A stretch of DNA of 64,000 nucleotides from Verrucomicrobiota bacterium (GTDB lineage: Bacteria; Verrucomicrobiota; Verrucomicrobiia; Limisphaerales; UBA9464), in contig JAFLEF010000005.1 of the NCBI GenBank assembly GCA_017309115.1, forward strand, positions 161,100 through 225,099, read 5' to 3'. The translations under genes were made by a program, and so were the position numbers. Every line of letters starts with the position of its first letter. The stretch's first letter is position 1. Below, one piece after another: positions 5,230 through 64,000 of the stretch. Under the pieces are notes generated by a model. The model was given only the letters and a program-made list of their open reading frames with translations. It had not been told where the DNA came from and did not search any database.

Positions 5230-6465
5230 ATGAACCTGCTCGTCGTTTTTCTCGTGCTGGTCTTCGCGTACAGCCTCCTTTCCGGGGCGCTGGAGCGGAG
5301 CCCGTTGACTGGGCCTATCTTCTTTACGTCCTGCGGACTCCTGCTGCCGGTGGTCTTTCCCACCCTGCCGGTCTCGGTGGGAGGACGATCCTTCTTCCTG
5401 CATGTCGCCGAAGTGGGCCTGGTGCTGCTGTTGTTTACCGATGCGAGTCGGACCAACGGGAAGATGTTGCGTCAGTTGGGAAGCCTACCGGTTCGCCTGT
5501 TGAGCACGGGAATGCTCCTGACTCTGGCCTTGGGAACGGTGTTGGCCCGGGTGGTATTTCCTCAGTTGTCCTGGGCTGAGGCGGGAATTCTCTCCGCGAT
5601 TCTGGCTCCGACCGATGCCGGGCTCGGCCAGGTGATCGTGAGCAGTCTGGACGTACCGACGCGCATTCGACAGGCGTTGAATGTTGAAGCGGGTCTGAAC
5701 GATGGGTTGTCGGTACCGTTTCTGATGTTCTTTTTGGCCTTGGTCCAGGAGCACGGATCGGAGGGAGGCGGGCTGATGAAGTTCATGATGGAGCAGCTTG
5801 GCTACGGGGCCATGATCGGCGCGGGCATTGGAGGGATGGGTGGGATGCTGATCGGTTGGGCGCATCGGCGGGGCTGGACGGCCGAAGCGGCGCAATCTCT
5901 GGCAGTGGTGGCTTTGCCGTTGTTGTGTCTCTTGGTGTCCCCACACGTGGGAGCGAGCATGTTCATTGCAGCATTTATGGCCGGGCTGCTGGTGCAGTTC
6001 GGATTCCCGGAGGTGGCCAGGCACAGTGCCGAATTCGCCGAAGGCTGGGGTCAGCTCTTGAACTTCTCGGTCTTCTTTTTCTTCGGCTTCGTAGTCGTCC
6101 GGGAACTAGGCCAGATCACTGGGGCGGCCGTCGTTTATGCCGTCCTGAGTCTGACCGTGATCCGGTTGGTACCGGTGGCCATCGCGCTGTGGGGGACCCG
6201 ACTGAGTCGGCCGACCGTTGTGTTCATGGGCTGGTTTGGTCCCCGGGGTCTGGCTTCATTGGTGTTGGCGCTAGTTTACCTGGAGGAGGAGACCCGCGCC
6301 GGAGGCGAGTCCACGGTGCGCTTGGCGGTGATGGTGACCGTGCTGTTGAGCATCTTCTTGCACGGAATCTCGGCCCAGCCCGGGATCCGACTTTACGCCC
6401 GGAGCCTGGCGCAGCTACCGGCCTCCGCTCCGGAACATCAGGACGAAGTGGTGGCGACGCGTTGA
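5230..6465 (+). CDS. CPA1-family cation/proton antiporter
   Basis: A 411-residue integral membrane protein with about 12 hydrophobic segments. It carries the hallmarks of NhaP/CPA1 sodium(potassium)/proton exchangers: the ILAPTDAGLGQVIV segment with the TD pair of the transport core, then ALNVEAGLNDGLSVPF, where the ND motif carries the cation-binding aspartate, and a late GWFGPRGLASLVLAL segment with the conserved arginine. It is shorter than eukaryotic exchangers and lacks a cytoplasmic regulatory tail. Expected role is inner-membrane pH or ion homeostasis. It is flanked by a 110-bp gap upstream and converges on the giant LamG gene downstream (79 bp between stops). Ion specificity cannot be read from the sequence. 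Confidence 0.88.
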   Translation: MNLLVVFLVLVFAYSLLSGALERSPLTGPIFFTSCGLLLPVVFPTLPVSVGGRSFFLHVAEVGLVLLLFTDASRTNGKMLRQLGSLPVRLLSTGMLLTLALGTVLARVVFPQLSWAEAGILSAILAPTDAGLGQVIVSSLDVPTRIRQALNVEAGLNDGLSVPFLMFFLALVQEHGSEGGGLMKFMMEQLGYGAMIGAGIGGMGGMLIGWAHRRGWTAEAAQSLAVVALPLLCLLVSPHVGASMFIAAFMAGLLVQFGFPEVARHSAEFAEGWGQLLNFSVFFFFGFVVVRELGQITGAAVVYAVLSLTVIRLVPVAIALWGTRLSRPTVVFMGWFGPRGLASLVLALVYLEEETRAGGESTVRLAVMVTVLLSIFLHGISAQPGIRLYARSLAQLPASAPEHQDEVVATR

Positions 6466-6544
6466 GTCCGCCCGGGGCCAGTAGGAGGTTCCCGGGGTGA
6501 CTTCCACTCGCGTTCCGGCGCGGTGCCAACGGCCTTGGGCCGGC

Positions 6545-9500
6545 TCAGTATGGCTGGCGGACGATGACCCGATAGAATCCGGAGACATCCTGCCCGAGGA
6601 GCGGCCCGATGATGATTGGGCCGTCGGTCGTAGGCCAAACGGTCTGCAGAACTTCCCAGTCGGTCAGACCAACCGTGGCGCGTCGTTGCAGCTGATAGAC
6701 TCGGGACGACAAAGCATCGATGACGACCTGGCCGTCCACGATGCGCAGCCGGAGGGCGCTGGCCGCGTTGTTGGCGGACGTGCCGGCCTCGAATTCCTCG
6801 GCGGCGGTCCAGCCATCGCCGTCGAGGTCACTGGTGGCGTCGGCAGCATTGCTGGGATTCGAACCGGTCGCGGTTTCGACGGAATCGGGAATGCCATCCC
6901 GGTCCCCGTCGGCCTGCAGCGGCAATTCGATGACCAACGAACTCGATTTCTCAGAGGCACCCGTTTCTTGAATCACAACCGAAAGCGGATTGCTTAGGTT
7001 GGTCGACACCAGGTTCAGGTCGAAGCTGAGCGTGCCATTCACTGGAATCGAAATGACTCCCGAGCGGGTGGCGCCCACGATCGGATCGTACTCCGCGGTG
7101 AAGATCGCACTCTTCATCTGAAGCGTGCTAACCCCGTTGGCGGGCACCGCGGCGAGCGAGACGGGGGATGAGGCGATACCGGAGTGGCGCAGTTCCAGGC
7201 CCATGCGATAGGGCTGGCCAACCACTCCGGGAACCTCCGGGATCCAGCCGAGCGCTTGGTTGCTGAACCGGGGTTGGATCAAGTGCAGTGAGAACTCGCT
7301 GACGCAACGTCCATGAGCGCCGGCCCGGTATGAGGCTACAATGGCTTCGGAGGTGAGGGCCTGGCGGTAGACCTGGACTTCATCCAACTCGCCTTGGAGA
7401 TAATCGCTGGCCACTTGGCTGGCGGGTTCGCCCAACCGGAAGGGAGCGTCCGAGCGGAGATCTCCTGGGATCGGCTGGCCGGAAATGACTGCCCAGCGTC
7501 CGTCCAGACTGCCGAAGTGACTCAAGTTGCCACCGCGGCCCACGGCCACATGGTGCCATTTCTCGTCCCGGAGGTCCGTGTTGCTGACGATCCAGTCGGT
7601 GGTCCTCGTCCCGTCTCCGGTCCGGAGGACGAGAATTCCGTTGGTGACCACAACGGCGTAACCTTGGATGAAGGAATCCACGATCCGGTGTTTGCTCAGG
7701 ACAGTATGATTTTGACGGGAGTTTCTCGGCAGACGGACCCAGAACTCGAGGGTGAAGGGTTGATCCGCGGCGAAATTCAGAAGCGGATGGTCGGCGACCT
7801 GAAGGGCGGCGTTGGTGCCGTTGAATTCAAACCCGCCATTCACCCGACCGAGAGCGGTATAGGTCAGACCTTCGGTCGGTTCGCCGACCAGACCGTTGAC
7901 CAAGCTGTTGGTGGAGTCGCCTTTCCACCACGCGGCCAATTCCGCCGGGACCGCAGCGCAGACAGCGGAGAGCTCCTGGGTGACTGAGGCGGTGTTATTG
8001 AGGAGGTTGAACTCCAGCGGTTCGGCCGTGAGGCTCACGGTTGAGACCACGTTGGTCGGGAACGTCGCACTGAAGGCGGACGCTTGACCTGCCGGAGTGT
8101 AGACCAGGGTGGCTCCGGACTGTCCGGGAATGGAGCCGAAGTTCACCGTCACCCGGGTTTGCTGTCCGATTCCCGGCGAGAATACGGTCGTTCGCGTGGC
8201 GGTTCCTTGGGACAGAGTTGGGGCGGGGCCGTCGTCATTGTGGCCGCTGTAAGCCGACCCCAGGTTGAGCACGGCCGTGACGTTGGAAGCCGTCGAGGCA
8301 CCGAGGTTGGTCACCACCATCAGGAACTGCGACGAAAAGCGGGGCGCAGTCAGGAGGGGCATGGCCGTCAACTCCACTTTGAGGTCTTCCACCACAGTCA
8401 TCGGGAACGGGGTGCTCAGGCCACGGTGACCGTTGCCATCATCAGCCAATAAACGGACCGCTGGTCCATAGCCCCGAATGGTCAGCGGACCGGTCCAGCG
8501 GCCGTCAACAAACGCGGAGGCGGTGTTGGGTACGACTTCCAAGGGAACGGAGTCGGTGAACGGAGTTACGAATCCGGCGTTAACCCGACCGAGATTGAGC
8601 GAGCCGTCCCGGAAAAATTCCCAGTCGGCGAGGCTCCTCGAATTGCGGGCAAGGTGCGGAACTCGGCGGTAGCCGGTGCTGTTGGAAAGGGCCGGAGCCA
8701 CGGAGGGGCCTGACCAGTCGTCCGCCCGAACCTGGACCGGGATGTAGATTTCTTCGGGTTGGGCGCGGTCAGCAAGGAAGGCGTCGCCAATGCTTCCGAA
8801 CGGATCCACCAGGAGAACGCCGATTCGTACGTCCCGGGGATCTTGCGGGGTGCCGCGATCCGCCCAGGAAACCGTCTGCCCCAGGCGGAAGTTCGGATAC
8901 GCTCCCGTGCCACTACCGGCGGCAATCACAAACACGCCGCCCGCCGGCACCACGGTGTCCACCGGCAATACGAGTGAGGCTCGAGGGGCGGGCCAACGGG
9001 AGGAGTCATAGAACGCCACGGTCCAGCCGCTGAGATCCACCGGACTGGTGGTGACATTCTGCAATTCCACCGTTGCGACGGGACTGACCGCGACTTCAGT
9101 GAACACGACTCCGCTGGGGCGACCGTTCCCGGCAAAAGCCTGGAGGGAGACCACGCTATTGAAGTTGGACACCACGGTTCCCTGGCTGTCGAGAGCGCGT
9201 AGGGACGCGGTAAACGGAGCGCCGGCGGTGACGGCCGTCGCAGGTGTCTCCCAGGAGAATTGGGCGACTTGGGAGATCAACCCGTCATCGTTGAGGATGG
9301 TTCCCGACGGCGGCGGAGTGCCAGCCCGAGGGAGGGTGAGTCCGCTCTCCTGGCTCAGGCTGAGAAAGAACAGTTCGTTTGGTTCGATGGACGAATCTCC
9401 ATTGACGAGCACTTCCACCACTTGGTTGGTCTGGCCCGGAGCGAAGGTCAAGGTACCCGAAGCGGCCACGAAATCAGTCGGCGCCCGGGCGGAGTCATTC

Positions 9501-59077: not shown

Positions 59078-59835
59078 GACCGACAGCGTGCGAAGATTGG
59101 GAAACCGCGTCAAAACCTGCCTGCAATCATTGGTGGGCCCAGAGGTTTCGGACCGCGGAAACGACCGTTGGAGAGAGTCGAGAAAAACCAAACCGGTAAA
59201 ATAGATCCGCCGTGGGCGCCTTCCCGTTCCACGAGCTGATTCCGCGGATTTACCTCTCAGCTCTCAGCTGGTTCGCGGGTAGAGGAGAAAACCCGGCGGC
59301 CCGTGGGAAGGGGGACCGCCGGGCCAGGTTTATCATGAGGAGGCACGGCCAGCCTGTTCGCCAACCGCGTTCGGGGTGGAAGGTAGGAGTCTTGCCCCGA
59401 CCATGATGACCGGGACGGAGGGTAGCACTTTCCTTCGCAGAACGTTGGTCAGTGCTCTTTCCACAAGCGCGAGGGATGCATAGAGAGTGCCAAATCCATT
59501 ATTGCGGCTAAACACCACCCCCCGCGGTCTGATGCTGGACAAAAACCGACAGACTGAGCCGATGCGTGCAGTCCCCGGGTGATTTCGGCGCAGCAACGGA
59601 CCACTGCAGCGAAGCCGGTACCGGATCGTCGGTCAAAACTGGTACGCCGATGGGGCCTCGCGTGCGTAGTTCCGTTGAGAGGGTGTCCGCTTGGACGGGA
59701 ACGTTGTGACTGACTCGCTGAAATCTGTTGTTCTGACACCGAGTTGTCGGGTTCGAAACGCCATCGGGTTGGAGCCGCATCCCGGGTCTCCGGGCGCGGT
59801 CTCCATCCCACGTTGAATCCTGAGCTTCCCGACCC
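59078..59835. other. Gene-poor region left of the cassette array
   Basis: About 760 bp with only low-quality ORFs, which have no recognisable domain and an Arg/Ser/Pro-rich composition typical of random frames in GC-rich DNA. It contains the second copy of the 23-bp repeat (59253-59275) and the minus-strand hairpin at 59292-59323. Confidence 0.45.
59292..59323 (-). terminator. Possible terminator for minus-strand transcripts
   Basis: CCCGGCGG (59292-59299) and CCGCCGGG (59316-59323) are exact reverse complements with a 16-nt loop. Read on the minus strand the hairpin is followed by TTTTCTCC, a weak U-run. It lies downstream of the PEP-CTERM remnant and cassette-array genes. Confidence 0.4.
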
Positions 59836-59961
59836 TCAAATCGCAGTTGATTCGGTCCTTAAGGTTCCCGGATTGCGGCGACGGCAGCGAAGGAATGCGA
59901 CACCCAGTCCTCCAATTCCCAACATCAGAATCGCGGATGGCTCCGGAACGGTGGTGGCGCG
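59836..59961 (-). pseudogene. C-terminal remnant of a PEP-CTERM sorted protein
   Basis: The minus strand from 59949 reads VPEPSAILMLGIGGLGVAFL, then RCRRRNPG, ending at a TGA at 59836-59838. This is a textbook PEP-CTERM exosortase sorting signal: VPEP, a hydrophobic helix and an Arg-rich tail. Directly upstream in frame there is a TGA at 59962-59964, and no other frame carries an obvious secreted protein, so the N-terminal part is missing. The break is about 115-135 bp from the leftmost ORF of the cassette array and may mark an insertion or deletion point. Exosortase substrates are common in Verrucomicrobiota. Confidence 0.75.
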
Positions 59962-60096
59962 TCAGAGTTCACCGACCGCCGCTGGAACCCGGCGTTGGCA
60001 GCGAATACAGCGTCCGATGAACCGGCGAGTGCGAACCCAAAACGTCTGGCAGCGGTTCGTGTGGAGCAAAAGTGTTCGGCGATTTTGGTGAAGTGT

Positions 60097-60387
60097 TCAT
60101 AGACTGAAACCGGAGTAGTTCGGCCGTGCCCAGTCGCACGCGCCGCAATTCGGACAGCGGCGGCGAAAGTACCGGAGCGACGTGAGCCAGCGCGGTAGCT
60201 CCCAGAGAACCCAAGACAGGAACAACCAAAGCGGGACAGCAACTACGAACGCCCAGCCGTGGATGCTGCGAGTGAGTATGGCGCAGAGAACTCCTGTGAT
60301 GAGGCCTGCAGGGAGAATAGTGAAGATGCCGCCGGCCGCGCTGTGCTTCCCGAGTTGCTGGTGACAACTATTGCATTCGATGCGCAT
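60097..60387 (-). CDS. Small membrane protein with two CxxC pairs (leftmost cassette-like ORF)
   Basis: A 96-residue protein: CNSC at residues 5-8, two hydrophobic helices (about 20-40 and 46-64), and CPNCGAC at residues 78-84. The two CxxC pairs on the same membrane side could bind zinc. It follows attC site 1 in the direction of transcription, as a cassette ORF would, and a GTTCGGC element stands 16 bp after its stop (60074-60080). I do not find the matching second end with confidence, so its own attC may be degenerate. Function unknown. Confidence 0.68.
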   Translation of the reverse strand: MRIECNSCHQQLGKHSAAGGIFTILPAGLITGVLCAILTRSIHGWAFVVAVPLWLFLSWVLWELPRWLTSLRYFRRRCPNCGACDWARPNYSGFSL

Positions 60388-60418
60388 TTGTTTCGTTCAC
60401 GGATCACGCGTGCTAGTC

Positions 60419-60493
60419 GCCTAACGGAAAGCTGAGCGAGGCCGACGCAGCGCAGCGGATTCGGCATTCGTCTCTGGCGCTGCTGTGTTAGGC
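60419..60493 (-). other. attC site 1
   Basis: 75 bp, with ends GCCTAAC (60419-60425) and GTTAGGC (60487-60493), a perfect 7-bp inverted pair and exact matches to RYYYAAC and GTTRRRY. The interior is partly palindromic (GCAGCGC/GCGCTGC). The stop codon of the 60488-61033 ORF is in the GTTAGGC core. Confidence 0.85.
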
Positions 60494-61033
60494 ATTGCCG
60501 GTCGCATTGGAGAGATGGGCTGAGTAATCAAGGAGCCAAATGCGCTCGATCCAAGCGTCCTCACCGTGCCGACGAATCTCGTCAGCTGCGAGACGTGGTG
60601 AGACACGACGAACCCATGGAACGGCGCGCTCAATGAGCGTGGACCGAAGGTGCCGCAACCGGTCGCGAAGCATGGCTGCCGAGATGCCGTCGAACTCGAA
60701 TCGGTCGTAGTCGTAGTTAAGATTGCGTGGGCGGTATGGCGGCGGTTTGGTAGCTGAGAAATCGGCCAAAAGAAACTTGTAGGGGTAAGCAAACACCTCG
60801 GAGACAAATCCGCGCGGCGTGGTCTCGTCGAGCGTGCGCAGGAATGTATGGCGGAAACACAACACGTGGGAGATGCCGCCTGGTGCTGCGAGGCGACCGC
60901 CAAGCCGGATGAGGCTGAGACAACCAAATCCATCGGTGTGGAAAAGGCTTTTGCCGGAAGATCGAAATCCGGCTGTCGCGAGGGGATGACGAACCTCGGT
61001 GTCGAAGATGGCAGCGAATTCATCAGCGTTCAT
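60488..61033 (-). CDS. Cassette protein, DUF4304-like
   Basis: A 181-residue protein whose N-terminal half fits DUF4304-type cassette proteins: FAAIFDTEVRHPLATAGFRS, GKSLFHTDGFGCLSLIRLGG, then FRHTFLR. No signal or membrane segment is present. The stop TAA lies in attC site 1. The 184 bp upstream to attC site 2 hold no gene. DUF4304 has no established function, though such proteins are frequent in integron cassettes. The family call is from pattern only. Confidence 0.78.
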   Translation of the reverse strand: MNADEFAAIFDTEVRHPLATAGFRSSGKSLFHTDGFGCLSLIRLGGRLAAPGGISHVLCFRHTFLRTLDETTPRGFVSEVFAYPYKFLLADFSATKPPPYRPRNLNYDYDRFEFDGISAAMLRDRLRHLRSTLIERAVPWVRRVSPRLAADEIRRHGEDAWIERIWLLDYSAHLSNATGNA

Positions 61034-61217
61034 TCATGTAGTTCGCGAAGCAGCGCCTTGTTAATGTTAAGGATCCGACAGCACTTTGTTCTGGAATACC
61101 GAAGGCATCCGACAGAAGCACCCCGGCGCTGGCAGGTGTGCCCCGCCGGGGCATACCTAAGAACATCTCCGACGGGGGGATGCTGGCGAGCCATTTCATA
61201 TCGCTAAATGTCGGTAT

Positions 61218-61343
61218 CCTTAACGCCCAAGGTCACCGACATCCGCCGGAAGCGGGCGCGGGCAGCGAATCCCGCGTTCGAGTTCTCCGGCGTATCCGAA
61301 ACTGAGACGTCGGGCGTCGGTTCGGTGCACCGCCTTGTTCGGC
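61218..61343 (-). other. attC site 2
   Basis: 126 bp, with ends CCTTAAC (61218-61224) and GTTCGGC (61337-61343); each departs from the consensus at one position. GGTCACCGAC near the left end is partly complementary to GTCGGTTCGGTGCACC near the right end, giving the expected long imperfect hairpin. Confidence 0.62.
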
Positions 61344-61354
61344 TGTTCTTTTTT

Positions 61355-61804
61355 TCATGCCAACTTCATGTCGTCCGAAAGTCGCACAGCCCACTCGAAT
61401 GTTCGAACTCGCTCACGAGGAACTAGCAACACCAAATAGGAATCCGAGCCATCCTCAATCACGCGCAGCACTCGCTCGGTGTCCTGCAAATAGCTCGCCA
61501 ACACTCGAAGCACCTTCAGTGGTGGCGATGTTTCGATTGTCTCGACACCCGGCAGCCTGGCTCGCTCAGCCGGCGAGAGGCAAGGCACGAGCAAGTCGTA
61601 AATGTCCTCAGGGCTTGCACGCCAGTCAACGCGGCCGCCGTGCCGGCCTGCAACGACTCGCCCAAATGATTTCATTGCCTCCAAGCGGGGTAGCCTCCGC
61701 AAACGAGAAATGTCGTCAGCGGTGAAACAAAGCACGCTACCCAGCTCGGCGAGCGAGTCACTGCCGCGCACCACCGAAATGATTCTGCTGATAAGGTTGC
61801 GCAT
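61355..61804 (-). CDS. Cassette protein, possibly DUF6630-like
   Basis: A 149-residue cytoplasmic protein. The pattern GGRVDWRASPEDIYDLLVPC followed by LRVIEDGSDSYLVLLVPRER resembles DUF6630, whose members have a W-x-A/D-x-PE segment and a DSDSY-lvp ending. The identification is tentative. It ends 11 bp before attC site 2, consistent with a cassette ORF, and starts 20 bp left of the next cassette boundary (attC site 3 at 61825). No promoter is evident. Confidence 0.75.
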   Translation of the reverse strand: MRNLISRIISVVRGSDSLAELGSVLCFTADDISRLRRLPRLEAMKSFGRVVAGRHGGRVDWRASPEDIYDLLVPCLSPAERARLPGVETIETSPPLKVLRVLASYLQDTERVLRVIEDGSDSYLVLLVPRERVRTFEWAVRLSDDMKLA

Positions 61805-61824
61805 GGCAGAGACGTTGCCGAGCG

Positions 61825-61920
61825 GCCAAACGACAGAACTGACCGACGCGGGCGGCCAGCGGGGTTGGAATTGGAAACTGACGTGGCCCGCTCGCGTTCG
61901 GTCCAGTGATCTGGTTCGGC
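61825..61920 (-). other. attC site 3
   Basis: 96 bp, with ends GCCAAAC (61825-61831) and GTTCGGC (61914-61920). It is about 83% identical over its full length to attC site 6 (63537-63632), also 96 bp; shared blocks include CTGACCGACGCGGGCGG and CGCGTTCGGTCCAGTGATCT. Confidence 0.78.
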
Positions 61921-61958
61921 CTTTGACTCATCGTGAATCGTCGTGGATATCTGGCAAC

Positions 61959-62360
61959 TCAACGCCCGTGCCGCCAAGGCTGAAGGAGACCACTCGGTGA
62001 AATTGCCCCCGCGAGGCACGGCGGTCGCTTTTCCGGCATCCCGCCCAACTGGATCCGTACGCGCACGACCAAATACCAGATGATCCCAAACGGCCAAGAC
62101 AGTGCACAGACAACGAACAGACCCATAGGGCCATACGAAATGCCCGACTCGTAACGCCGGAGATGGACACGCGTGGAATCGTAGGCAGCAAGTGCGGAAG
62201 TAACGAACACAACGAGAGCTCCGATGACCGCAGACCAACGCTGCTTGGACGTGGCATATGGCCGCCAATCCGTCTCCTCAATGACATACCAGACCAACAG
62301 AGATAAAATGAAGAGGACAGCAATCACTGCCTTCTTGGAGAATTGGAAGTTAGGTTTCAT
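61959..62360 (-). CDS. Cassette protein, small membrane protein
   Basis: A 133-residue protein with three hydrophobic segments: about 10-27 (KAVIAVLFILSLLVWYVI), 44-60 (AVIGALVVFVTSALAAY) and 78-97 (PMGLFVVCALSWPFGIIWYL). The tail is polar and Pro-rich (GGMPEKRPPCLAGAISPSGL). No family recognised. The ATG at 62360 is 16 bp left of attC site 4, and the stop is 38 bp right of attC site 3, so it is one cassette. Membrane proteins are common cassette cargo. Confidence 0.72.
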   Translation of the reverse strand: MKPNFQFSKKAVIAVLFILSLLVWYVIEETDWRPYATSKQRWSAVIGALVVFVTSALAAYDSTRVHLRRYESGISYGPMGLFVVCALSWPFGIIWYLVVRVRIQLGGMPEKRPPCLAGAISPSGLLQPWRHGR

Positions 62361-62376
62361 ACGAGACGCTCGAAGT

Positions 62377-62502
62377 CGTCAACGACAGAACTGAGCGACA
62401 GCCGCCGAGAGGAACGGTGGAGCGCACGAGGCACCCTCGAATTGCCGCCCGGCGTCGCGCGGAGAAGCGGGGCGGGTGTTCGCTCCAGTGACCTTGTTAG
62501 GG
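62377..62502 (-). other. attC site 4
   Basis: 126 bp, with ends CGTCAAC (62377-62383) and GTTAGGG (62496-62502). The outer parts match sites 3 and 6 (CAACGACAGAACTGAGCGAC; GTTCGCTCCAGTGACCT), but the centre is longer and different. The stop codon of the 62497-63033 ORF is within the GTTAGGG end. Confidence 0.72.
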
Positions 62503-63033
62503 CTTGCTGATCTTGTCGAACTGCTCACTTAAATCCTTTCGACTGATATACAATATGGTCACGGCGCTCTCGATTTTTGAACTTGTAAGGAAGCTCATCT
62601 TGTATCGGTCACCTGTTGAGTCGAACTCAATTTTTTCGGGAAAGGCAATCGAACCTGAAGTCTTGAGGGGAAGATCAACTCGTGACCTGTTTGTGTAGGT
62701 GCTAAAATCCCAACCGACGGAAATCATCATCAGTCGCTTGTTCTCCTCCGGGTCATCCGAATGCAATTTGCCAAACTTGGCATCCTTCGTAGATACCTGA
62801 AGAATCTGCAGCCAACGGTCATGGGCTTTGGAATGGACAAAGAAACCTGGCTCTGTGTTACCGCCAAAATCTCGGTGATCGCCGTAATCCCGCGCCAAGA
62901 ACAGAAAGCTGCCGTCGTAATAGACGACGCTCGTATTGCGCGTGCCTGGGGAATCGGTCTTTGTGACGACGGACTGCGCGCACAGCACTGCCGTTAAAAT
63001 AGCGGTGGCAAGAATCAAGATGCCCGTTCGCAT
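62497..63033 (-). CDS. Cassette protein, secreted, unknown function
   Basis: A 178-residue protein. The ATG at 63033 lies 3 bp from attC site 5 and begins a signal peptide (MRTGILILATAILTAVLCAQ); the frame upstream to 63096 runs through the attC site and is not the real start. A cysteine in AVLCAQ might be a lipobox, but the context is imperfect. The mature part is beta-rich (VVYYDGSFLFLARDYGDHRD; YTNRSRVDLPLKTSGSIAF). No family recognised. The stop lies inside attC site 4. Confidence 0.75.
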   Translation of the reverse strand: MRTGILILATAILTAVLCAQSVVTKTDSPGTRNTSVVYYDGSFLFLARDYGDHRDFGGNTEPGFFVHSKAHDRWLQILQVSTKDAKFGKLHSDDPEENKRLMMISVGWDFSTYTNRSRVDLPLKTSGSIAFPEKIEFDSTGDRYKMSFLTSSKIESAVTILYISRKDLSEQFDKISKP

Positions 63034-63035
63034 AG

Positions 63036-63128
63036 CCCTAACGTCGCTACTCAGTGACGCGCCGGTAATGATGTCCAAAGTGGAACCAGGGCGCAACCGG
63101 CGCGTTCACTGTAGTAGCCTGGTTGGAC
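63036..63128 (-). other. attC site 5
   Basis: 93 bp, with ends CCCTAAC (63036-63042) and GTTGGAC (63122-63128). The arms are strongly palindromic: CAGTGACGCGCCGG near the left pairs with CCGGCGCGTTCACTG near the right with a single extra base. The centre includes CCAAAGTGGAACC. Confidence 0.8.
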
Positions 63129-63137
63129 CGCGAGAAA

Positions 63138-63533
63138 CTATGGCCTGAACTCCTCGACATATTCTGGCTCTCCGGATAACTGCAATCGAACACCTCGCCC
63201 TGTCACGGTGACTGCGTGCACAGAATCGAAGACGAGACGCAACTCAGCATGGGCTTCTGAATCAAGAGGCATGGGAATGTGATTATCGTGCAGCTCGCCA
63301 TCGATCGTCAGCGCACCATCCATGATGTCGCAGGGCAAATCAGGAATCTCGCCATTGACGGATGCATCGCCAAAAATGAGCCGAGCCTCTTGAACCCAAC
63401 CAGTGCCCGCATCGTTTCCAGGCCGACCCTGGGATTTGTGAAGGTAAGCTGGCCGGAAATGAACAATCATCTCGCCAAGTTGCCCGTCAATCGTAGCAAC
63501 TGTTGAATCGTGAAGCTCAATGATTGTGTTCAT
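63138..63533 (-). CDS. Cassette protein of unknown function
   Basis: A 131-residue cytoplasmic, beta-rich acidic protein. The start is the ATG at 63533 (MNTIIELHDSTVATIDGQLG), directly next to attC site 6; an upstream in-frame ATG at 63581 would lie within that attC. Segments RPAYLHKSQGRPGNDAGTGW and GRGVRLQLSGEPEYVEEF look well preserved. It ends 9 bp before attC site 5. I do not recognise the family. Confidence 0.75.
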   Translation of the reverse strand: MNTIIELHDSTVATIDGQLGEMIVHFRPAYLHKSQGRPGNDAGTGWVQEARLIFGDASVNGEIPDLPCDIMDGALTIDGELHDNHIPMPLDSEAHAELRLVFDSVHAVTVTGRGVRLQLSGEPEYVEEFRP

Positions 63534-63536
63534 GCG

Positions 63537-63632
63537 GTCCAACGACGGAGCTGACCGACGCGGGCGGTCAGTGCCGTCCAAGTTGGAAACTGACGCAGCC
63601 CGCCCGCGTTCGGTCCAGTGATCTGGTTAGGC
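63537..63632 (-). other. attC site 6
   Basis: 96 bp, with ends GTCCAAC (63537-63543) and GTTAGGC (63626-63632), both exact matches to the attC consensus. About 83% identical to site 3. The stop codon of the rightmost cassette ORF falls in the GTTAGGC core. Confidence 0.85.
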
Positions 63633-63881
63633 CATTTTTTCGTCTGTCCACACCAGATCAAATTCTATTCCCGTCAGACCGCTCGCGTTCACGACCGCCT
63701 TGAACTCACCATCGTCGGCATCCCCAGTCCTTTCAACGCAATACAACGCTGTTGCTCTGTCTTCCGGGATTTTGAAGATACTCTCTTCGCCGAAACGTGA
63801 GCCGAAAAATGCTGGACGATCCATCTGGCGTTCGTCCCGCCCTGGGCCAAACTTCCGATATTTACTCTTCTTCGGCCTCAA
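63627..63881 (-). CDS. Rightmost cassette ORF, probably 5'-truncated immunity-like protein
   Basis: An open frame of up to 84 residues from a TTG at 63881, which overlaps the transposase stop; an ATG at 63824 would give 65 residues. The segment SRFGEESIFKIPEDRATALY followed by FKAVVNASGLTGIEFDLVW resembles the C-terminal part of DUF1629/Imm11-type immunity proteins, in which the GL.G..F..VW ending is typical. Those proteins are usually about 190 residues, so the N-terminal half is missing and the transposase lies exactly where it should be. The stop is inside attC site 6. The family call is tentative; truncation by the insertion sequence is inference. Confidence 0.6.
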   Translation of the reverse strand: MRPKKSKYRKFGPGRDERQMDRPAFFGSRFGEESIFKIPEDRATALYCVERTGDADDGEFKAVVNASGLTGIEFDLVWTDEKMA

Positions 63882-64000
63882 TATGAGTTTGTGTGGGTAG
63901 CTGGGAGGGGATCCGGGAGGTCGAAGTGAAGGTGGGAGGCGACGAGATAGATCATGGTGGTGAAGTATTCGACGGTGCGGAAGCCGCGGGATTTGCGCTT
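63878..64000 (-). CDS. ISL3-like transposase, C-terminal fragment (runs off window)
   Basis: The minus strand from 64000 to the TGA at 63878-63880 reads KRKSRGFRTVEYFTTMIYLV and ends with LPATHTNSY. The KR.RGFR..EYF..MIYL pattern matches the C-terminal end of ISL3-family DDE transposases. Only about 40 residues are inside the window. The end of the insertion sequence should be close to the stop, right beside the cassette ORF. Its other end and any integrase lie beyond the window. Confidence 0.7.
   Translation of the reverse strand, partial: KRKSRGFRTVEYFTTMIYLVASHLHFDLPDPLPATHTNSY

Follow-up and report, generated by a model that had tools for sequence, protein, structure and literature searches.

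The 64,000-nucleotide stretch analysed here (the window) comprises bases 161100–225099 of contig C57 from a Verrucomicrobiota genome assembly, and its segment at 59954–63633 is, with high confidence, an integron gene-cassette array. Seven inverted-repeat sites, all on the minus strand, alternate there with seven small genes on the same strand, and an eighth cassette gene is interrupted by an insertion sequence at the contig end. The last base of the window is the end of C57, which stops 367 bases past the last attC site, inside the insertion sequence. The source genome amounts to 7.53 Mb in 111 contigs, and the assembly is 95.3% complete with a contamination estimate of 3.69%. A preliminary description, made from the sequence alone, had proposed six attC-like sites alternating with six open reading frames (ORFs). 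The alternation held, but the count is now seven sites and seven genes, the site at 59954–60081 and the gene at 60097–60387 having been added. In such an array, each small gene is followed by an attC site, the folded bottom strand of which would serve as the substrate of the integron integrase.

The sites were examined with two covariance models built in this study. The first, R1, was constructed from 15 sites, 6 of which are from the window. Because R1 was trained partly on window sites and is thus partly circular, the second, R2, was built without C57, from 27 hand-chosen sites on other contigs. R2 recovered all seven window sites, as did R1. The six sites of the preliminary description were all found at their positions on the minus strand, with R2 scores of 82.6, 78.0, 72.1, 68.8, 55.7, and 21.1 bits; all six are thus scored by a covariance model trained outside C57. 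The only extra R2 match in the 64-kb window scored 11.6 bits (E 0.41), and chance is therefore a very unlikely source of six of the seven sites, the weak 78-nt site at 60417–60494 being the exception. Among 31 other loci, R2 gave matches at 9 of the 23 around integron integrases and none at the remaining 14, and no match was found at any of the 8 loci around more distant, XerC/D-like relatives.

Covariation was assessed by five measures in two alignments, A1 and A3, and two of the measures were reached by many shuffles, as described below. Cells changed on both sides numbered 39 (A1) and 50 (A3), as compared with shuffled means of 18.8 and 16.8, and these counts were reached in none of the 500 shuffles in either alignment. 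When the alignment was slid by 1–3 columns, the paired cells fell from 85.5% (A1) and 88.7% (A3) to at most 45.9%. The R helix is paired in 75.2% (A1) and 78.6% (A3) of the cells, and the L''/L' stem in 90.6% and 93.4%; in either alignment, 9 of the 15 pairs of this stem show a change on both sides. Unpaired single bases occur on the R''–L'' arm only, 8 columns apart, in a structure that was set by hand; extrahelical bases are defined by their position on this arm in PMC2727003. At the second of these bases, all 27 R2 training sites have a bottom-strand T (top-strand A), as do 5 of the 6 rows that the window contributes to A1. The R boxes of the window contain AAC in 7/7 sites and GTT in 6/7.

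A clear polarity is also seen between the sites and the genes. R' adjoins the start codon and R'' adjoins the stop codon, as at 63033 (GTTAGGGCTATG), and the longest ORF lies on the attC strand in all six window intervals. The stop codons of the genes at 60488, 62497, and 63627 had been placed within the GTTAGG core, and they are indeed there, inside R''. It had also been noted that start codons lie close to the neighbouring site; R' is next to the starts, but the frame at 63627–63881 has no genuine start. Covariation, extrahelical bases, and polarity match those of integron attC sites. Together with the covariance models and a complete integron elsewhere in this genome that has attC sites of the same types (see below), they support the cassette layout that was originally proposed.

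The features of the array are as follows.

59954–60081, minus strand: attC site 7, distal end of the array; R1 85.0 bits (this site is outside the R1 training set), R2 86.4 bits.
60097–60387, minus strand: cassette gene, 96 aa, with a weak zinc-ribbon likeness (top Pfam match PF10601, E 0.00085, below the cut-off).
60417–60494, minus strand: attC site 6, 78 nt, boxes GCCTAAC/GTTAGGC; R1 32.8 bits (R1 was trained on it), R2 21.1 bits (E 0.00059).
60488–61033, minus strand: cassette gene, 181 aa, stop within the R'' box (from the ORF list).
61050–61224, minus strand: cassette-like segment with no convincing gene (a 58-aa ORF at 61023–61199).
61216–61345, minus strand: attC site 5; R1 102.5 bits, R2 78.0 bits.
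61355–61804, minus strand: cassette gene, 149 aa, DUF6630-like at a borderline score (PF20335, E 7.1e-06).
61823–61921, minus strand: attC site 4; R1 93.5 bits, R2 82.6 bits.
61959–62360, minus strand: cassette gene, 133 aa, a small membrane protein by the look of its sequence (Pfam matches below the threshold only).
62375–62503, minus strand: attC site 3; R1 94.8 bits, R2 68.8 bits.
62497–63033, minus strand: cassette gene, 178 aa, start directly behind R' and stop in R''.
63034–63129, minus strand: attC site 2; R1 62.6 bits, R2 55.7 bits.
63138–63533, minus strand: cassette gene, 131 aa, with a 67% DNA relative elsewhere in the family.
63535–63633, minus strand: attC site 1, nearest to the contig end; R1 85.6 bits, R2 72.1 bits.
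63627–63881, minus strand: cassette gene, 3' part only, the 5' end having been removed by the insertion sequence.
63876–64000, no strand assigned: insertion-sequence end; the contig terminates at C57:225099.

Site 7 retains GCCGAAC in R'' and has lost the GTT of R', and site 6 is of a different type. The segment at 61050–61224 has had its own attC cut down in the window copy and is thereby fused to the next cassette (60488–61033). The insertion-sequence end, which reads as a transposase-like C-terminus, is matched at C52:1–131 and also in contigs of a relative (G016). Four other approaches to the sites can be summarized briefly. With a simple scan for inverted repeats, one site was matched in full and another in part. 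The 23-base right-arm string of the sites on contig C3 had no window match at 3 mismatches. An Rfam search over 56–64 kb at E 1 gave nothing and was not counted as evidence; we know of no attC family in Rfam. The single-sequence DNA folding that had been suggested as a check did not separate the strands of the six sites (z from −0.45 to −3.74 on the plus strand and from +0.16 to −3.69 on the minus strand).

Nearly all of the window cassette products are of unknown family in Pfam, NCBIfam, and PHROGs. A DUF4304-like identity had been suggested for the product of 60488–61033; no such match, and no other Pfam or NCBIfam family, was found for it at E 0.1. The DUF6630-like assignment of 61355–61804 fared better and remains borderline, at 26.9 bits against a cut-off of 27.0. 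No Pfam family was found for the product of 62497–63033, the hydrophobic N-terminus of which looks like that of secreted proteins, and the 7 window proteins scanned against PHROGs gave no family. Across the arrays of the genome, 126 ORFs between sites were taken by script, 107 were scanned after 19 short or doubtful ones had been dropped, and 3 were added by hand to give 110 cargo proteins. At E 1e-4, these gave 20 Pfam families, none of them in more than two proteins, including SMI1_KNR4, Barstar, Imm35, Tdi1 immunity, HicA, DMP19, Macro, and DUF4240. Ten PADLOC models of three kinds (RT-Protease_XI, PDC-S70, and PDC-S10) were matched in the cargo. Neighbouring sites are spaced by a median of 411 bases in the genome, and 90 of the 119 intervals between them have their longest ORF on the strand of the attC sites (binomial p 1.9e-8).

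The integrase expected of such a system was found on contig C3, which carries a complete integron. An intact gene (5670–6764) encodes an integrase of 364 aa, a roughly 240-base attI lies between this gene and the first cassette, and the 11 attC sites are located on the other strand. Against TIGR02249 (cut-off 265), the integrase reaches 415 bits, and its residues 44–363 align with the Vibrio integrase 2a3v (E 5.4e-86) through the KYPNAP segment. It also carries HTLRH and IYTH motifs; we take this segment and these motifs to be the IntI patch and catalytic residues, respectively. Its five top-listed relatives, among 80 named loci kept from 346, are Verrucomicrobia metagenome-assembled genomes (MAGs) at 58–67% identity, which indirectly supports the earlier assignment to a Verrucomicrobiota-like genome. 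It is the only integrase above the TIGR02249 cut-off that was found in the assembly. Matches in C44, C46, C79, C43, C29, C64, C19, and C10 are below the cut-off, and those in C44 and C46 adjoin presumed transposase genes and were not counted as integron integrases. Putative elements of C44 (locus L019, about 12100) and C46 (locus L020, about 9610 and 4955) terminate within the attC R'' box (GTTC, then AA), at the same position in the three places. These elements, which appear to contain transposase-like and tyrosine-recombinase genes, may target attC cores, as would be predicted from the preference of IS91-type elements for GAAC.

Sites are numerous elsewhere in the genome. R1 found 146 sites at E 0.01 in 22 of 26 loci (416 kb), the 7 of the window included, and 7 further sites at E 0.05 in 4 of 8 additional loci, giving a total of 153 on 24 contigs; these loci were picked from BLAST, integrase, and model matches and are not an unbiased sample. 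A whole-genome R1 search, in which 150 of 8714 candidates were scored, gave at least 124 matches at E 0.1. The strand of the sites is uniform within every locus (the 22 loci and those added later). An attC-like type, GCCTAACATCCAAGGTTG ... GGGGCGTTAGC, was seen on C10 (locus L053, about 2100–2240) and C81 (locus L024, 1–130) and was missed by the models; the site count is therefore probably a lower bound. Plasmids gave no DNA match.

The unusual feature of this genome is the number of its attI copies. The string GTCGGTGAATCAACTGTT occurs 7 times in the genome at no more than one mismatch, as compared with 0 for a reversed control and 0 of 38 relatives, and 20 times with up to 3 mismatches, as compared with 2 for the control. 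At the head of the C67 array is an eighth copy, which has two mismatches and reads ATT in place of GTT. Two other two-mismatch matches, in C26 and C37, were not accepted as attI. The eight copies agree as far as the GTT insertion point (ATT in C67) and differ beyond it, except that those of C70 and C67 resemble each other further. The R1 sites behind them number 11 on C3, 11 on C67, 6 on C108, 5 on C81, and 1 each on C86 and C70, the latter two copies being located at contig ends; the copies of C10 and C26 are each followed by one cassette-like gene and no model-detected site. Only on C3 does an intact integrase lie beside attI. The attI of C108 adjoins an integrase remnant with stops; no integrase over the cut-off was found on C81, C86, C70, C26, or C10; and C67 ends 224 bases upstream of its attI. 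Iterated CCGACA half-sites occur in five of the eight copies in two flavours, AATATACCGACAG (C3, C81, and C108) and AATCGTCCGACAG (C10 and C86). Upstream of the insertion point, the same two groups carry 28-base inverted repeats, TGTCGGTATATTGCGCAATATCCGACAG and TGTCGGACGATTGGTAATCGTCCGACAG, with further half-sites; judged from sequence, these repeats could be binding sites of the integrase or of a regulator. Long dispersed repeats, namely CTCTCAGCTCTCAGCT, TACCCCTTACCGCTTACC, and a GATTAATCTGGAACACAGG block, lie upstream of attI on C3 (locus L018, 6800–8600), C10, C86, C108, and C70, and recombination between such repeats might have copied the platforms.

Cassettes are held in common by different arrays. 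Ten pairs of loci match over at least 150 bases, and in seven of these pairs the match begins at the R' end and runs on across the gene: C3/C81 (95.4%), C46/C108 (96.8%), C75/C68 (95.4%), C46/C95 (92.4%), C67/C81 (91.1%), C3/C68 (80.5%), and C3/C46 (80.4%). The C44/C46 pair (84.6%) begins 17 bases in, and C46/C20 and C54/C36 are partial. The window participates through the segment at 61050–61224, which recurs in C81, directly behind attI, and in C29, behind a dissimilar attI-like stretch that adjoins the truncated remnant of an integrase. The C81 copy contains a palindromic insert of about 50 bases (locus L024, about 2835–2890) that is absent from the window copy, and the C29 copy, at a contig end (locus L033, 1–50), has an insert of this kind at least in part.

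The relatives were examined in a set of 39 genomes, the source genome included. R1 matches at E 1e-4 are present in 33 of the 39 and an integrase over the cut-off in 16. The window DNA at 59400–63900, for which at most 7 candidates were scored per genome, matches 17 of the 38 relatives, and 14 of the 17 include an attC stretch. The non-attC matches listed are a repeat at 59400–59470 (the sole match in G003 and G022), the insertion-sequence end (G016), and the cassette gene at 63138–63533. For this gene, a 67% DNA relative is found in another genus of the family (G013), with no attC beside it, as judged from the absence of R2 matches in loci L051 and L171. The product of 60488–61033, the one cassette protein searched, has no match at E 1e-5 in the 38 relatives; the DNA search overlooks diverged genes. 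The near restriction of the DNA matches in relatives to attC stretches is what exchangeable cassettes predict and speaks against a fixed operon, and the syntenic arrangement that would have contradicted the preliminary description was not encountered in these searches. The gene to the left of the array belongs to an esterase family that was found in all 12 genomes searched; DNA similarity around it extends up to 59464 in G002 and covers the gene only in G004 and G003. Upstream of this gene, 59286–59470 is 74% identical to G002, and the 59400–59470 part recurs in G003, G004, G016, G018, and G022.

Several observations weigh against a cassette array with genuine attC sites. The observed number of pairs changed on both sides was reached in 40 (A1) and 98 (A3) of 500 shuffles, and that of additional pair types in 275 and 396. 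Only 11 of the 27 training sites have the usual G (top-strand C) as their first extrahelical base. The RYYYAAC/GTTRRRY-like ends that had been described are retained in their AAC and GTT cores, but the strict consensus is looser, with RYYYAAC in 3 of 7 R'' boxes and GTTRRRY in 2 of 7 R' boxes, and the site at 60417–60494 is weak. The longest ORF lies on the opposite strand in 29 of the 119 intervals of the genome. Among the window cassettes, a second genomic copy was found by DNA search for 61050–61224 alone (40 of 88 candidates scored). Finally, no integrase above the TIGR02249 cut-off is present on C57, and the insertion end of the window array lies beyond the contig end.

Some of these signs also bear on the possibility that the array is a fossil, with immobile cassettes and with sites that are relics of past integron activity. 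The distal site without GTT, the fused cassette at 61033–61050, the insertion sequence in the proximal cassette, and the weak site at 60417–60494 all fit such decay. However, AAC and GTT are retained together in six of the seven sites, the genome has an intact integrase, and other arrays have cassettes in common at up to 97% identity; we consider a fossil array possible, if rather doubtful. It is also conceivable, though somewhat unlikely, that the window array is the distal part of a complete integron, the integrase and attI of which would lie a short way past the insertion sequence, outside the contig. The label of a cluster of attC sites lacking integron integrases (CALIN), proposed in the preliminary description, fits the known sequence, which has no integrase on C57; the contig, however, ends within the insertion sequence, 367 bases past the last site. 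Many other arrays of the genome are also near contig ends, and split assemblies yield spurious CALINs according to PMC9024848. Against a hidden integrase stands the fact that the sole one found over the cut-off sits on C3 with its own attI and array, although the assembly is no more than 95.3% complete.

The plurality of arrays and attI copies may also be partly an artefact of several strains or species binned together. This we regard as improbable. A size of 7.5 Mb as compared with 3.9–5.9 Mb in four relatives of the genus, the 111 contigs with 3.69% estimated contamination, and the many arrays close to contig ends speak for a mixed bin. The attI core is, however, absent at no more than one mismatch from all 38 relatives, and the attI flank of C81 is single copy apart from dispersed repeats common to many contigs (40 of 645 candidates scored). 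Tetranucleotide composition likewise ties the arrays together: 21 array loci correlate with the window at 0.815–0.962 (median 0.93), whereas 68 loci of other organisms have a median of 0.58, with 1 of the 68 at 0.81 or above. Three loci of G004, a relative of the same genus, correlate at 0.83–0.92, and composition therefore does not exclude close kin. The last alternative, that the sites are dispersed palindromic repeats among ordinary operon genes and unrelated to integrons, can draw on their being inverted repeats in a genome rich in other dispersed repeats, but it is already contradicted by the AAC/GTT boxes, the one-sided extrahelical bases, the constant orientation relative to the genes, and the occurrence of such sites beside an intact integron integrase and attI, and it has almost no chance of being correct.

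Returning to the cassette array, its working may be pictured as follows. With the genes running to the left and the plus strand of the window as the bottom strand of the sites, the insertion end points to the right, to the contig break. The C3 integrase would excise and insert the window cassettes in trans, and the array would be mostly silent storage. Its left, oldest end is decaying, with GTT lost at 59954 and the cassettes fused at 61033–61050, and its young end has been struck by the insertion sequence. For the genome as a whole, we tentatively propose a distributed integron, in which some eight scattered attI platforms and two dozen array contigs are all served in trans by the one intact integrase (C3), and the integrase genes next to the remaining attI copies are decaying (C108) or have disappeared; we give this proposal a little less than an even chance. 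Cassettes would then circulate among many chromosomal addresses.

The relationship to known systems can be considered on this basis. A 2a3v-related integrase, an attI, and many cassettes of unknown function are shared with the Vibrio superintegron, as is some immunity-like and toxin-antitoxin-like cargo, which is typical of Vibrio arrays. A sedentary chromosomal integron is one long array with many cassettes and similar attC sites. In contrast, the sites here are spread over 24 contigs, with at most 15 per locus examined and several attC types, and one long homogeneous array was not found in this fragmented assembly. Like a CALIN, the window array combines several attC sites at distances below 4 kb with small same-strand genes, and no integrase is present on the known contig sequence; the proximity of the array to the contig end and the integrase elsewhere in the genome are unlike a CALIN. 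In PMC9668308, a CALIN is defined by two or more attC sites separated by less than 4 kb; the window has seven in 59954–63633. The same text mentions 107 attC sites (more than 18 contigs) for one archaeal MAG and describes CALIN cassettes as mobilisable in trans. The present genome resembles these attC-rich archaeal MAGs, in which most integrons are CALINs, in having many attC sites in one MAG, and differs in its complete integron and its attI copies without an adjacent intact integrase. Xanthomonas integrons with decayed intI, as portrayed in PMC12444791, where CALIN mobilisation in trans is also stated, are similar in that the integrase is lost and the cassettes remain; here, in contrast, a single genome has many attI copies, and an intact integrase accompanies one of them. 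Verrucomicrobiota are listed among the phyla with integrons, and three routes to CALINs are given, in PMC8618304; more than one IntI occurs in 22% of IntI-bearing genomes according to PMC9024848. Integrons of Verrucomicrobiota, and CALINs in general, are already published, and the seven-site array is another case of these known systems; the unusual part is the multiplicity of attI. Several attI copies with one intact integrase were not found in print by an abstract-level literature search, which left subscription journals mostly outside.

The array widens the record of integrons in the phylum and the order. The cargo of the arrays of this genome is mostly unknown and includes several immunity-like proteins, so that these arrays are a source of uncharacterised small genes. 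Because natural attI copies with and without an adjacent intact integrase coexist in it, this genome makes it testable whether one integrase feeds cassettes to sites across the chromosome.

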